Assembly: GCA_017427945.1 (NCBI GenBank)
Contig: JAFRRT010000007.1
Span: 1-64,000 of the forward strand
Reading direction: 5' to 3'
DNA: 64,000 nucleotides
Origin: Muribaculaceae bacterium
Lineage (GTDB): Bacteria; Bacteroidota; Bacteroidia; Bacteroidales; Muribaculaceae
A model generated the notes under the pieces. It was not told the DNA's origin. It did not search any database and was given only the letters and a program-made list of their open reading frames with translations. Both the position numbers and the translations under genes were made by a program. Every line of letters starts with the position of its first letter. The stretch's first letter is position 1. This document shows, piece after piece, positions 10,901 to 15,464 of this stretch.

Positions 10901-12217
10901 TTACTGTCTTGCTTGTTGCAGTCCGTAAAGCATCACGACGACAAAGCAAATCACGGGCACGACAAACGAGAGGTTCACGGCAGGGATGACCTGAACGTGG
11001 CTGTCGATAATCATCGCCTGGAGCGCCGGCAGCAGACTGCCTCCCAAAATCGCCATGATCAGTCCCGCCGAGCCTACCTCGGTATCCTCGTGCACGCCCC
11101 CCAGGGCGATGCCGTAGATGGTGGGGAACATCAGACTCATGCAAGCCGACACCGCCACCAGGCAGCACATGCCCGTGCGTCCGCCCACAAAGATGACTCC
11201 CATGAGCAGCACAATGGCCAGCATCGAGAAGAAGGCCAACAGCCGTCCCGGCTTGAAGAACTTCATCAGATAGATGTTGACAAAGCGCATCAGGCAAAAG
11301 AGGACCATCGCCACGATGTTGTAGCGCTGGGACAGCACCTCGGCCGCCTGCTCGCTCATGCCCTCGAGCATAAACACGCGCGTGCCGTACTGGATGATAA
11401 AGGTCCAACAGGTAATCTGGGCACCCACATAAAAGAACTGCGCCACCACGCCGTTGCGGTAAGAGCCGTTGGCAAACAGACGCTTGACGGCAGGCCACAG
11501 GGGCTCGCGACGCTCACGCGCCGCCTGACGCACGGCAGGGATGGGCACAAAGAGCATCGCCAGCAACAGTAGCACAAGCACCACACCCAGCAGGGCATAG
11601 GGCTGGACGAGCACACTGAGGTCGCTCTGCTTCAACGCCTCGAAGCGGACATCGTCGAGGGTGGCACGCTGTGCCGTGTCGAGCGGAGAGAGGCGCGCCT
11701 GGATGAAGTTCATCGCCACAAACATGCCCGCCAGCGACCCGATGGGGTTGAAGGACTGGGCAAAGTTGAGGCGGCGCGTCGCGGTCTCGGGGTCACCCAT
11801 GAGCAGGATGTAGGGGTTGGCGGTCGTCTCGAGGAACGACAAGCCGCAGGTGAGGATGAAATAGGCCACGAGGAAGGGCCAGAAGCTGCCCATTGCACGC
11901 GCCGGCAGGAACAGCAGCACACCCAGGGCATACAGGGCCAAGCCCATCACGATGCCGCTCTTGAACGAGTGGCGACGAATGAACATTGCCGCCGGCAACG
12001 CCATGCAGAAGTAGCCGCCGTAAAAGGCCACCTGCACCAGGGCACCGTCGGTAACACTCATGCGGAAAATCTTGGAAAAAGCCTTCACCATGGGGTTGGT
12101 GATGTCGTTGGCAAAGCCCCACAGGGCAAAGCAGCACGTCACCACGATAAAGGGCAGCACATAGCTTACGCCCTCGCGCGTGACCAGCAATCGGGATTTA
12201 TTCTCGTTATCCATCAT
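10901..12217 (-). CDS. fucP: L-fucose permease-type MFS transporter
   Basis: 438 residues with about twelve transmembrane helices. The segment FALWGFANDITNPMVKAFSKIFRMS followed by GALVQVAFYGGYFCMALPAAMF is characteristic of the FHS family, whose best known member is the L-fucose:proton symporter FucP; ETTANPYILLMG and LNFAQSFNPIGSLAGM are further family signatures. It sits third in a minus-strand operon after a nucleotidyltransferase-kinase fusion and a mutarotase (13-bp gap). Substrate is inferred from family and neighbours; other FHS members carry glucose, galactose or other hexoses. The start at 12217 could also be the next Met codon. Confidence 0.85.
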   Translation of the reverse strand: MMDNENKSRLLVTREGVSYVLPFIVVTCCFALWGFANDITNPMVKAFSKIFRMSVTDGALVQVAFYGGYFCMALPAAMFIRRHSFKSGIVMGLALYALGVLLFLPARAMGSFWPFLVAYFILTCGLSFLETTANPYILLMGDPETATRRLNFAQSFNPIGSLAGMFVAMNFIQARLSPLDTAQRATLDDVRFEALKQSDLSVLVQPYALLGVVLVLLLLAMLFVPIPAVRQAARERREPLWPAVKRLFANGSYRNGVVAQFFYVGAQITCWTFIIQYGTRVFMLEGMSEQAAEVLSQRYNIVAMVLFCLMRFVNIYLMKFFKPGRLLAFFSMLAIVLLMGVIFVGGRTGMCCLVAVSACMSLMFPTIYGIALGGVHEDTEVGSAGLIMAILGGSLLPALQAMIIDSHVQVIPAVNLSFVVPVICFVVVMLYGLQQARQ

Positions 12218-12229
12218 ACAAACTAAGGA

Positions 12230-12562
12230 CTAATCCAGCTTAAATATCCTCTCCATCAATTGCCACTTGGCCGTCGAGGGGGCGTTGGGGTCACAGCCCT
12301 GGAATTGGGCCACATAGGCCTCCCACTCGGCCTGACGCGGCAGCGTGGCAAGGCGGGCGTTGTCGGCCTCCCAGTCAAAGTCATCGACCGTGTCGCATAT
12401 CATGAACAGGCGGTTGCCCAACAAGTAAATCTGCATATCCAGGATGCCCACACTGCGGATGCCCGCCTGAATCTCGGGCCACACATGGGCATGGGCCTCG
12501 ACGTATTTCTCAATCATTGCGCGGTCGTCGCGCAGCTCAAGGGTTTGGCAATATCGTTTCAT
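12230..12562 (-). CDS. L-rhamnose/L-fucose mutarotase family protein
   Basis: 110 residues, typical for the RhaM family (dimeric alpha-beta barrel). Motifs are RYCQTLELRDD at the start, EAHAHVWPEI with the conserved histidine near residue 25, and MQIYLLGNRLFMICD. The family interconverts the alpha and beta anomers of L-rhamnose; related proteins act on L-fucose. Being between a fucose-type permease and a fucokinase-like fusion suggests that the substrate is L-fucose or a similar deoxysugar. The start codon is embedded in the last unit of a 7-nt repeat array (12559-12586) and only 25 bp separate it from the upstream gene. Confidence 0.85.
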   Translation of the reverse strand: MKRYCQTLELRDDRAMIEKYVEAHAHVWPEIQAGIRSVGILDMQIYLLGNRLFMICDTVDDFDWEADNARLATLPRQAEWEAYVAQFQGCDPNAPSTAKWQLMERIFKLD

Positions 12563-12586
12563 AACTCCTAACTTCTAACTCCTAAC
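12559..12586 (-). repeat. four tandem heptads in an operon gap
   Basis: Read on the minus strand: GTTAGGA, GTTAGAA, GTTAGGA, GTTATGA. The array fills the gap between the kinase fusion and the mutarotase, and the last unit contains the mutarotase ATG. Confidence 0.8.
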
Positions 12587-12587
12587 T

Positions 12588-13757
12588 TTACAAGTCGCCG
12601 CGGCGTATGGTCAGCGCGATGGCACCCTCGGGGAAATGGTCGCGGTCACGGCAGACGAGCGCCAGATAACCGCCGCCACCGGCGCCGGGCATCTTCCACG
12701 CCAGCACACCGTCCATGGCGCTGTAGCGGTCGATGAAGTCCTGCACGCCGGGCTGAATCATCGCGGGGAACATCGCCACCTGGGCGTTGAACGAATCCCT
12801 GTAGGCGGCAGCAAAGGCATCGAGGTCACGGCGCTGGATGGCCTGCCAACAGGCATCGGCAGCCGCAGCAAGGGCCTTGACCTTGGCGGGGGTGATGTCC
12901 TTGCCCTCGACTACGCTGCAGCCCGGGCGGCGCGGAAACATGGGTATCATGCACAGATGCCCCTCGAGCCAGGCCAGCAGGTCGGGGTCCTGGGTGTATT
13001 CAATCTTCTCGGGCCAAAAGCTGCCGTTATAATAATGTCGCGCGAGGCCCGGCACACAGATGCCGATGGCGTCCTGGGCACCGCTAATGATGCCGTCGCT
13101 GCGCTCGGGGTCGTTCTCGAGGCAAAAGACCAGACGTGCCAGCATTTCGGGGTCCATCACGGGCAGCTGGTAGGGCCACACACGCTTGATGGTGTTGCGC
13201 GTGCTGGTTGACAGGCCGCAGCGCTCACGGACCTCGAACGTGGGCTCCAGCGAGATGGTCAGCGCCCAGCCCGGGGCATGGCAGGAGACATAGGGTTGGT
13301 CAATCCACGTTCCCGCCAGGTCCAGACGCGTGGGCAGCTGGCTGGGCATCTGCTTCAGGTCGGTGCTGCTGCGGGCATCAAGGCCCTCGCGCGGCACACG
13401 CTGCAACACGATATACTCCATGCCACGCTCACGGCACAGCTGGCGCTTGTCCTCGCGGTCACCGTCCTCGTTCACCACCAGGCAGTCGGGGTGAACAATG
13501 TCGAGGGTGGGCAGGAAGTCGAGATAGCCCTCGCCCTGATTGATGTAAGCATCCTTGACATAGCGGATGGCACGCACCATGAACAGGCGCTCCTGCTCGC
13601 TGTACATGGTCTTGTGGCCCTTCAAGGCCGCAATGGTCTTGTCGCTGCCGATGCCCACATACAGGTCGCCATACTGCGACGCCTGCTTGAAAAATTCCAC
13701 ATGGCCCGAGTGCAACAGGTCGTAGCACCCCGACACAAAAACTTTCTTATTAGCCAT
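12588..13757 (-). CDS. fusion of HxGH nucleotidyltransferase and fucokinase-like GHMP kinase
   Basis: 389 residues in two domains. Residues 1-135 are a cytidylyltransferase-like Rossmann domain with GCYDLLHSGHVEFFKQA (the HxGH motif of the TagD/RfaE type) and a later YSEQERLFMVRAIRYV motif. Residues 138-389 are a GHMP kinase: LPTRLDLAGTWIDQPYV resembles the sugar-binding start of L-fucokinases, CGLSTSTRNT fits the ATP loop, SDGIISGAQDA and PGAGGGGYLALV complete the fold. Inference: it phosphorylates a sugar and transfers a nucleotide to it, as Bacteroides Fkp does for fucose with an unrelated pyrophosphorylase domain. It is first in the operon with the mutarotase and permease. Substrate and nucleotide (CTP, ATP or GTP) are unknown. 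Confidence 0.8.
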   Translation of the reverse strand: MANKKVFVSGCYDLLHSGHVEFFKQASQYGDLYVGIGSDKTIAALKGHKTMYSEQERLFMVRAIRYVKDAYINQGEGYLDFLPTLDIVHPDCLVVNEDGDREDKRQLCRERGMEYIVLQRVPREGLDARSSTDLKQMPSQLPTRLDLAGTWIDQPYVSCHAPGWALTISLEPTFEVRERCGLSTSTRNTIKRVWPYQLPVMDPEMLARLVFCLENDPERSDGIISGAQDAIGICVPGLARHYYNGSFWPEKIEYTQDPDLLAWLEGHLCMIPMFPRRPGCSVVEGKDITPAKVKALAAAADACWQAIQRRDLDAFAAAYRDSFNAQVAMFPAMIQPGVQDFIDRYSAMDGVLAWKMPGAGGGGYLALVCRDRDHFPEGAIALTIRRGDL

Positions 13758-13815: not shown

Positions 13816-13869
13816 TGTCGCGACATCTTCACACATAAACAAAGCCGTTCATTGCCACCTATCGCGACA
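13816..13869. promoter_or_regulatory. two TRTCGCGACA palindromic boxes, putative operators
   Basis: TGTCGCGACA (13816-13825, perfect palindrome) touches the -33 box and TATCGCGACA (13860-13869) lies 44 bp upstream. Same-face spacing (about four helical turns) next to a sugar operon promoter suggests binding sites for a dimeric regulator. No regulator gene is adjacent. Confidence 0.5.
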
Positions 13870-13910
13870 ACGAACGACCTGTTATTCCAATTATATAAAC
13901 TCTGCTAAGG

Positions 13911-15269
13911 CTACTCGCCCGGCACCCCCTGGAGCGTCCGCTCGATGTCGGCATCGCTGATTTTATAGTTCATCAGGTCGCCGTTCAGGTACTGGTCATA
14001 GGCGCTCATGTCAATCAGGCCGTGACCCGAGAGGTTGAACAGGATGACCTTCTCTTCGCCCGTCTGCTTGCATTTCAAGGCCTCGCGGATGGTGGCGGCA
14101 ATGGCGTGGCTCGACTCGGGAGCGGGGATGATGCCCTCGGTGCGGGCAAAGAGCATGCCGGCATCAAACGACTCGAGCTGCGGGATATCAACGCCGCGCA
14201 TGAGCCCGTCCTTGAGCAACTGGGAAATAATCATGCCGGCACCGTGATAGCGCAGTCCGCCCGCATGGATATTGGCGGGCTTGAAGGTGTGGCCCAGCGT
14301 GAACATCGGCAGCAGGGGTGTGTAGCCCGCCTCGTCGCCGAAGTCGTAACGGAATTCGCCACGCGTGAGTTTCGGGCAGCTCTCGGGCTCGGCAGCGATG
14401 AACTCGGTGTGACGGCCGTCCTTCAGGTTGTGGCGCATGAAGGGGAAGGCGATGCCGCCAAAGTTGGAACCGCCGCCAAAGCAGGCAATCACCACATCGG
14501 GGTATTCGCCCGCCATGGCCATCTGCTTCTCGGCCTCCAGACCGATAATCGTCTGGTGCAGTCCCACGTGGTTGAGCACCGAGCCTAAGGTATATTTGCA
14601 GTTGGGCGTCGTGGTAGCCAGTTCCACCGCCTCAGAGATGGCGGTACCCAGCGAACCGGGGTGGTGCGGGTCACGCGTAATGATGTCCTTGCCGGCCCGG
14701 GTGGACATCGACGGAGAACCCGTCACGGCAGCCCCGAAGGTGCGCATGATGGACGAGCGGTAGGGCTTTTGCTGCATCGAGATTTTGACCTGATAGACTG
14801 CAGCCTCCAGGTCAAACACCCTCGCAGCATAAGCCAGGGCAGCACCCCACTGGCCAGCACCGGTCTCGGTAGTGACATTGGTAGTCCCTTCTTGCTTGGC
14901 ATAGTAGCACTGTGCCAGTGCCGAATTGATTTTGTGGGAGCCTAACGGATTTACCGACTCGTTCTTGAAATAGATGTGAGCGGGCGTCTGCAAAGCCTCT
15001 TCCAGGGCATAGGCGCGAACCAGCGGCGTGGAACGGTAGAAGCTGTATTTGTCCAGCACCTCCTCGGGGATGGGTATGAAATCATGTTCGGTATCAAGTT
15101 CCTGCACGCAACATTCACGTGGAAAGATATGGGCCAGATCGTCCACCCCCAGCGGCTGCCGTGTGGCAGGGTGGATGGGAGGCATCGGTTTGGTGGGCAT
15201 GTCGGCCTGAATGTTGTACCATGCTGTAGGCAACTCGTTCTCTTGAAGAATAAATCTTTTCTGTTTCAT
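13911..15269 (-). CDS. trpB: tryptophan synthase beta chain, TrpB2 type
   Basis: 452 residues, the longer TrpB2 class. It condenses indole with serine, using pyridoxal phosphate. The cofactor lysine is K113 in NPLGSHKINSALA; ETGAGQWG (about 135-142) and the phosphate-binding GGGSNFGG (265-272) are intact, and SGHGLIDM lies near the end. No trpA or other trp gene is in the window, so it stands alone here. TrpB2 enzymes often work without TrpA and their role has been debated; here the mRNA leader carries a Trp-codon attenuator, direct evidence that the cell controls this gene by tryptophan supply. Confidence 0.93.
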   Translation of the reverse strand: MKQKRFILQENELPTAWYNIQADMPTKPMPPIHPATRQPLGVDDLAHIFPRECCVQELDTEHDFIPIPEEVLDKYSFYRSTPLVRAYALEEALQTPAHIYFKNESVNPLGSHKINSALAQCYYAKQEGTTNVTTETGAGQWGAALAYAARVFDLEAAVYQVKISMQQKPYRSSIMRTFGAAVTGSPSMSTRAGKDIITRDPHHPGSLGTAISEAVELATTTPNCKYTLGSVLNHVGLHQTIIGLEAEKQMAMAGEYPDVVIACFGGGSNFGGIAFPFMRHNLKDGRHTEFIAAEPESCPKLTRGEFRYDFGDEAGYTPLLPMFTLGHTFKPANIHAGGLRYHGAGMIISQLLKDGLMRGVDIPQLESFDAGMLFARTEGIIPAPESSHAIAATIREALKCKQTGEEKVILFNLSGHGLIDMSAYDQYLNGDLMNYKISDADIERTLQGVPGE

Positions 15270-15298: not shown

Positions 15299-15330
15299 AA
15301 AAGGCCTGTCGCAAGTACGACAGACCTTTT
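15299..15330 (-). terminator. trp attenuator terminator hairpin
   Basis: On the minus-strand RNA, a 13-bp stem with one G-U wobble (15318-15330 with 15299-15311) and a 6-nt loop is followed by UUUUAAAA. It lies between the leader peptide and trpB, 30 nt before the trpB ATG, so it must be conditionally read through. Confidence 0.85.
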
Positions 15331-15361
15331 GTTTCTATATTGTAATCTTATGATTTCACAC

Positions 15362-15401
15362 GGCCAGGCGACTCACGACTATTTCAATCTTGAGCTACGC
15401 C
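15362..15401 (-). promoter_or_regulatory. trp attenuator 1:2 and 2:3 pairing segments
   Basis: Stem 1:2 pairs GGCG (15398-15401, overlapping the last Trp codon) with CGCC (15367-15370), and CTCA (15391-15394) with TGAG (15372-15375), all on the minus strand. Segment 2 (15362-15370) can instead pair with the 5' arm of the terminator (15318-15326) at 7 of 9 positions. A ribosome stalled at the Trp codons would block 1:2 and favour 2:3. The antiterminator is my weaker inference. Confidence 0.55.
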
Positions 15402-15423
15402 ACCACCAATATGCTGAAATCAT
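15379..15423 (-). CDS. trpL: trp leader peptide MISAYWWWRSSRLK
   Basis: A 14-residue open frame with three consecutive tryptophan codons (TGG TGG TGG, codons 6-8) starts about 30 nt after the predicted transcription start and ends 49 nt before the terminator hairpin in front of trpB. Runs of the regulated amino acid's codon in a short leader, followed by alternative hairpins and a terminator, are the definition of ribosome-mediated attenuation as in the enterobacterial trp operon. With scarce charged tRNA-Trp the ribosome stalls and trpB is transcribed. There is no Shine-Dalgarno site, normal for this phylum. It is too short for routine ORF calling. Confidence 0.88.
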   Translation of the reverse strand: MISAYWWWRSSRLK

Positions 15424-15456
15424 TGTCATAATAACATAATATTTATGTTGACGCTG

Positions 15457-15464
15457 CAAATATA
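15457..15464 (-). promoter_or_regulatory. -7 box for the trpL-trpB transcript
   Basis: Minus strand TATATTTG, a perfect box, placed so that the leader RNA begins near 15450, about 27 nt before the leader peptide ATG. A weak CAA-type -33 (minus TTG) lies near 15485. Confidence 0.7.

Follow-up and report, generated by a model that had tools for sequence, protein, structure and literature searches.

A tryptophan-codon leader divergent from Bacteroid-trp upstream of a lone trpB2 gene: a probable attenuator in a Muribaculaceae genome

TrpB2 is a TrpB-like PLP enzyme, and in the stretch of DNA analysed here (64,000 nt of contig JAFRRT010000007.1 from a Muribaculaceae bacterium, hereafter the window) its gene stands alone behind a short frame with three adjacent tryptophan codons. 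The locus raises two connected questions, namely whether this leader is an attenuator that reads the supply of charged tRNA-Trp, and what a lone TrpB2 under such control would be making. We confirmed that the arrangement is real, on the minus strand, with all its parts at the coordinates given below. It is highly probable, judging from these parts, that the leader is a ribosome-mediated tryptophan attenuator homologous to Bacteroid-trp (RF01692), which would control a one-gene trpB2 unit. The mechanism is very likely of a known kind; what is new, within the literature searched, is its target, a lone trpB2, and its genomic setting.

Organization of the leader

The promoter that the first-pass annotation had placed upstream of the leader was recovered: the -7 element TATATTTG (15457..15464, minus strand) is separated by a 20-nt spacer from a CTTG (15488-15485, minus strand), a combination of the Bacteroidetes promoter type, and a consensus scan gave no sigma-70 match at the leader. 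By eye, the pattern TAnnTTTG could be located within the alignment for 14 of 15 leaders and lies farther upstream in L007. The leader peptide frame, MTMISAYWWWRSSRLK* (15379..15429, minus strand), has 16 codons from the ATG at 15429 to the TAG stop codon at 15381-15379, the 14-codon frame described earlier being the one read from a second ATG at 15423; relatives with a single ATG (L016, L067 and L081) start 7 or 8 codons ahead of the first Trp codon, and the window's first ATG, 7 codons ahead, resembles them. The three Trp codons, TGG TGG TGG (15408-15400, minus strand), are adjacent as had been claimed, and the 1:2 stem proposed to overlap the last of them was found in the minimum free energy (MFE) fold as a protector hairpin (15350..15423, minus strand), inside which lie all three Trp codons as well as the stop codon. 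Its inner part (GCUCA/UGAGU and GAUUG/UAGUC) is kept in the remoter aligned leaders, where the outer pairs are often broken.

Downstream, an intrinsic-terminator-like hairpin (15299..15330, minus strand; -20.0 kcal/mol) has 14 pairs, rather than the 13 noted earlier, and the U tail assigned to it is a short tract (TTTTAAAA, 4 T in 8); tracts with fewer than 5 T occur in 8 of 28 unique trpB2 leaders. This hairpin was absent from the minus-strand output of a consensus terminator scan. Both the protector hairpin and the terminator are present in the MFE fold of the window leader (-51.5 kcal/mol, z -5.9), and none of 200 shuffled sequences was equally stable. Chance co-occurrence of the parts was ruled out by scanning with a strict definition (two TGG codons that are neighbours or separated by a single codon, within an ATG-started frame no longer than 45 codons, plus a terminator with 9 pairs or more): on both strands of the 64-kb window the present site was the only one, and none was found on either strand of 342,230 nt of background taken downstream of trpB2 in 80 relatives.

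The trpB2 gene (13911..15269, minus strand; 452 aa) starts at 15269, after the terminator, and its product matches TIGR01415 with 586 bits (cut-off 519) and NF009057 with 685 bits (cut-off 366). Because a terminator-like hairpin lies behind the gene (13842..13880, minus strand, from the consensus scan alone), a one-gene transcription unit is suggested. Cytidylyltransferase-like, mutarotase-like and sugar-permease-like genes, recognized by eye, follow 3' of trpB2 on the minus strand (10901-13757), the first of them without an NCBIfam match at E 1e-20.

Distribution among relatives and kinship with Bacteroid-trp

Aligning the leader across related Bacteroidales genomes had been proposed as a check on the annotation, and the homologous leaders found carry at least two Trp codons together with the terminator. 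Out of 585 trpB2 relatives from named genomes the best 80 were taken, of which 79 remained once L003, with 119 nt upstream of its gene, had been left out. An RNA motif search without any Trp-codon requirement recovered the leader in 14 of these 79, and WWW, WCW or WW stands at the same place in all 14; the search returned 25 rows, among them 10 uncounted loose matches (three errors, at other places). L004 was counted through the motif and not through the strict parser, which missed it, the longest frame there running past 45 codons. Frames containing WW at L076 and L080 were rejected as leaders, both overlapping the end of the upstream ORF.

We then searched 217 genomes of the family with R1, a covariance model built from the 14 relatives and the window, that is, from trpB2 leaders only. 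Scores above 100 bits were obtained in 17 genomes, all of the window's genus, the next best score being 42 bits; at E 0.01 there was some match in 35 of the 217, the 18 beyond the 17 being weak, and these whole-genome RNA searches ran under stricter filters by which weak matches are lost. The named and whole-genome sets overlap, some of the 17 genomes being the same assemblies as model rows, and 13 of the 28 unique trpB2 leaders that could be parsed lie outside the model. In every homologous leader found, including those of all 17 genomes, at least two Trp codons are adjacent or one codon apart. TrpB2 is encoded directly 3' of the leader in 16 of the 17; in the remaining one, G131, the contig stops 113 nt past the leader and TrpB2 opens another contig. 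The stand-alone trpB2 with a tryptophan attenuator, as first proposed, is sustained in that the homologous leaders found combine Trp codons, terminator and alternative pairing.

The distribution of the leader is patchy within the genus, where it was detected in 17 and undetected in 17 of the 34 sampled genomes that are TrpB2-only. In a TrpB2 tree, the window's clade has 12 rows, ten of them with the leader, the others being L003, with its cut contig, and L075, a long-branch row without a leader; five more leaders are scattered outside this clade. The leader label requires 7 changes on the tree against 14.1 when shuffled (0 of 500 shuffles as low), with a bootstrap that had not converged. Repeated loss seems the simpler reading, with repeated gain as a possible alternative. 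Terminator-like remnants lie directly upstream of trpB2 in L037 (2323-2474), L053 (2306-2451) and L064 (2343-2453), none with a Trp-codon frame, and suggest decay of the leader. Such remnants, the leader going undetected in half of the TrpB2-only congeners, and the short U tract of the window would all suit a relic that was inherited with trpB2 and no longer works. We consider this very improbable, given that the window and its relatives retain the Trp codons, the inner protector hairpin, the antiterminator and the terminator as a set, and that the leader is present in 10 of the 11 rows of the window's TrpB2 clade with usable upstream DNA.

Attenuation in a Bacteroidales, to which the first-pass annotation had drawn attention, is supported here for trpB2 and is not new in itself, as it is preceded by Bacteroid-trp and by trpB1 leaders of the family and order. 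Bacteroid-trp appears in Table 1 of Weinberg 2010 (PMC2864571). At the Rfam gathering score there was no match in the leader region; in a permissive search, RF01692 aligned with the window leader over its full length (model positions 1-131) at 40.4 bits against a cut-off of 49 (E 0.0018 in 361 nt), and the cut-off was reached by none of the 17 whole-genome and none of the 10 named leader loci. Across 295 genomes of the window's order, 47 were matched by RF01692 at E 0.01, 15 of them above the cut-off. Among the best 30 of these 47 loci, 23 adjoin a TrpB that is 27-31% identical to TrpB2 and is read as TrpB1 by that identity (for loci in plus orientation also by eye), five have no assigned gene, and two have a TrpE-like gene. 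The latter, L181 and L184, carry the leader before the TrpE-like gene, identified by eye, and not before trpB1. Conversely, R1 matched all 30 fetched loci (the best 30 of 47) with at least 42.0 bits and up to 95.8 bits; since terminators on the wrong strand were matched with up to 40.7 bits, a score close to 42 proves little alone. The leader peptides are also alike, as seen in YWWWRSVQLKSS (L156) and AWWWQNSRLKSRE (L162).

Because of the full-length alignment, the R1 matches and the agreeing peptides, the trpB2 leader can be considered a divergent homologue of Bacteroid-trp outside Rfam's cut-off. Both occur in the same phylum and have a WW/WWW peptide with a similar tail, a strand resembling GUCGUGAG and, often, a CUGUCG..CGACAGG terminator; unlike Bacteroid-trp, the present leader scores below gathering and precedes a lone trpB2 instead of, mostly, a canonical trpB1. 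As to its origin, R1 gave 95.8 bits for L162, before a TrpB1 of another family, versus 23.4 (L153) and 18.1 (L152, partial) for trpB1 leaders of the window's own genus, both being candidate sources.

By the strict scan, a leader precedes 29 of 39 canonical trpB1 genes of the family (upstream regions drawn from 56 genomes above cut-off) versus 0 of 20 trpB2 genes, among the matches listed, in family genomes bearing trpB1, a control confounded by kinship since these 20 trpB2 lie outside the window's genus. By eye, roughly 20 of the 29 trpB1 leaders that could be parsed (within L115-L153) have a different-looking Trp attenuator with a WWRIGNNYRW(R/Q)-like peptide and a CCGAUGGC strand facing a GCCAUCGG terminator arm. 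An Rfam scan at E 0.5 over 20 of the 39 trpB1 loci in L115-L153 gave no RF01692 match.

No report of a trpB2 leader in Bacteroidetes was found in the literature searched, most subscription journals being outside its reach. A related case is known from Corynebacterium diphtheriae, in which trpB2A is preceded by a candidate attenuator (Seliverstov 2005, PMC1262725). The two have in common a predicted attenuator ahead of a second trpB gene; unlike the window's genome, C. diphtheriae is an actinobacterium with two trp operons, its trpB2A lies beside trpA, and we liken that gene to trpB2 by name and not by TIGR01415 type.

Antiterminator pairing and proposed mechanism

The antiterminator pairing had been called weak in the first-pass annotation, a view that the window and its relatives contradict, since the pairing is strong, conserved and co-varying over the wider family. 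GACC:GGUC alone had also seemed weak to us, an assessment that was reversed once the GUCGUGAG:CUUGCGAC pairs were included. In the window, the 5' strand GUCGUGAGUCGCCUGGCC (15362..15379, minus strand) pairs with GGUCUGUCGUACUUGCGAC (15326-15308, minus strand), which comprises the terminator 5' arm, the loop and the upper 3' arm. The duplex 5'-GUCGUGAGUCGCCUGGCC-3' / 5'-GGUCUGUCGUACUUGCGAC-3' has -21.3 kcal/mol versus -20.0 for the terminator hairpin, and none of 100 shuffles was equally stable. The conserved strand GUCGUGAG...GACC is the partner of the same three terminator segments, and when leaders were folded without the 3' terminator arm, GAG.CG..GACC paired with the terminator 5' side in many of the 15. 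Over the 28 unique trpB2 leaders, the pairing of region 2 with the terminator averaged -20.0 kcal/mol; when region 2 was shuffled the mean was -10.8, and segments next to it gave about -7.

Co-variation was assessed by exchanging partners among 83 unique leaders, which remained after removal of three duplicates from 86 parsed ones (trpB2, 31 of 32; trpB1, 29 of 39; RF01692 loci, 26 of 30). In 2000 permutations, none equalled the true pairs for RF01692-type leaders, for trpB1-type leaders, or for trpB2 and RF01692-type leaders pooled; for trpB2 leaders alone 48 of 2000 did, a slight co-variation, as those leaders are nearly alike. Individual cases include L184 and L174, with matched changes in the antiterminator pairing, and L183, in which the terminator stem is quite different, yet the loop CUUGCGA is kept and pairs with UCGUGAG. 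In trpB1-type leaders of the family (e.g., L117 and L126), by contrast, it is the 5' arm that serves as partner.

The leader therefore combines clustered Trp codons in a short ORF, a terminator-like hairpin and an antiterminator mutually exclusive with it, from which we infer the following course of events. With charged tRNA-Trp at hand, the ribosome would clear the three Trp codons, reach the TAG at 15381-15379 and cover the GUCGUGAG strand, so that the terminator at 15330-15299 could form and transcription would stop short of trpB2. Under Trp shortage it would stall at TGG TGG TGG and mask the protector hairpin on its 5' side; GUCGUGAGUCGCCUGGCC would then be free to capture the nascent GGUCUGUCGUACUUGCGAC, the terminator would stay open and trpB2 would be transcribed. 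With the ribosome side masked and the 3' arm present, the terminator persisted in the MFE fold of all 15 leaders, and antitermination thus needs capture during transcription, as in known attenuators.

Adjacent Trp codons, a protector hairpin, a terminator and a competing antiterminator also make up the enterobacterial trp leader (RF00513), and this four-part layout is shared by the window. Unlike in RF00513, the window's antiterminator strand pairs with the loop and upper 3' arm besides the 5' arm, and no trp operon lies downstream in the window; RF00513 itself gave no match in the window leader in Rfam searches at gathering or permissive settings.

The similarity of the peptide end, WWWRxSRLK, across distant families could also point to an arrest peptide of the TnaC kind, in which the nascent chain senses free Trp instead of the ribosome being slowed at Trp codons. 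Leaders of the TnaC type have a conserved Pro after the Trp, end in a Rho-dependent manner and lie upstream of tryptophanase. Here no conserved proline was seen by eye, a terminator hairpin is present and the gene is trpB2, not tryptophanase. Moreover, the peptide is variable behind WWW (R/C followed by S/C/N/D/R, with R/G and L/F/S/C farther on), and conservation at the nucleotide level falls on the bases that pair within the inner protector hairpin. Arrest by the peptide is, in our judgement, highly unlikely, and slow decoding of the Trp codons is the reading retained.

TrpB2 and the supply of tryptophan

What a lone TrpB2 might make was approached through the other tryptophan genes, the search covering trpA, trpB1, trpC and trpE. 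In the L156 alignment, GGLRYHG of TrpB2 faces AGLDYPG of TrpB1, an Arg replacing the Asp that we presume to be catalytic in TrpB1. TrpB1 (TIGR00263), TrpA (PF00290), IGPS/TrpC (PF00218) and full-length TrpE (TIGR00564) were found in none of the 17 leader genomes, TIGR00564 matching just a short C-terminal part in seven of them, at 50-62 bits, which we read as PabB-like. Two congeners, G126 and G200, carry all four genes, so the searches work in the window's genus; they alone have full-length TIGR00564 matches, of about 409 bits and still under the model cut-off. As the 17 genomes are 90-98% complete, assembly gaps are an unlikely cause of four absences in all of them. With TrpB1 not found, TrpB2 is the sole detected TrpB in these genomes, and the window genome, a relative of rumen Prevotella, appears to be without the rest of the tryptophan pathway.

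Since TrpA, TrpB1, TrpC and TrpE were not found, TrpB2 would most likely use indole from elsewhere, and a role in indole salvage, switched on in Trp starvation, is likely on this gene content. PMC11917138 and PMC11085991 cite Hiyama 2014 for indole salvage and Busch 2014 for the use of O-phosphoserine by TrpB2; further literature comprises PMC9026213, PMC2395257 and PMC4833913. A Trp-codon leader before trpB2 in 17 of the 34 TrpB2-only genomes constitutes regulatory evidence for tryptophan as the product, and so the leader would indicate that TrpB2 makes tryptophan, probably by indole salvage.

To the alternative that attenuation is real and TrpB2 serves something other than Trp synthesis, for example as a serine deaminase or another PLP enzyme tracking Trp starvation, we give little credence. 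Xie 2002 is said to be Merkl's source for the deaminase idea. According to Merkl 2007 (PMC1854888), that role had been hypothesised for TrpB2, and the lone TrpB2 of Pyrococcus horikoshii, like a lone TrpB2 without other trp genes, had been taken as a sign of another, unidentified function; the tested enzymes, however, were poor deaminases, and gene neighbourhoods pointed to no second function. Against a role outside Trp synthesis also speak the Trp codons of the present leader, its homology to trp operon leaders, and TrpB2 as the only TrpB detected in each of the 17 leader genomes. The same paper states that no bacterium surveyed at that time was trpB2-only, with which the 34 TrpB2-only genomes of a single genus contrast, and the function of a lone TrpB2 thereby becomes directly testable.

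The window genome also encodes a tryptophanase, TnaA, with 905 bits against the cut-off of 750 of a curated model. Its gene (L205 1498-2874, C5 of the same genome) lies in a genome where the tested Trp-pathway genes were not found. TIGR02617 matched in 16 of the 17 leader genomes, four of the matches being partial or split and none above cut-off; at these scores tryptophanase and tyrosine phenol-lyase are inseparable, and the window genome's protein is the one that was checked further. The attenuator may keep TrpB2 off when tryptophanase would otherwise oppose it. Tentatively, then, these relatives of rumen Prevotella could have cut Trp synthesis to one Trp-attenuated step, TrpB2 acting on scavenged indole under an attenuator taken from a lost trp operon, the two enzymes forming a Trp/indole switch whose codon-reading leader determines at what point indole becomes Trp and keeps TrpB2 from opposing the cell's own tryptophanase. 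The leader before trpB2 also suggests that, upon pathway loss, an attenuator was transferred to a non-orthologous enzyme or retained on one, and attenuated TrpB2 may bear on which organisms consume rumen indole.

Lastly, three consecutive genes elsewhere in the window genome (L206 1203-4740, C7) encode a homologue of the indolepyruvate oxidoreductase alpha subunit (529 bits against a cut-off of 651), a likely beta subunit and an aminotransferase-like protein without an NCBIfam match at E 1e-20, the last two assigned by our own reading. Together they could make up a reductive pathway for aromatic amino acids, and the oxidoreductase together with the aminotransferase-like gene might supply Trp in a way that bypasses TrpB2.
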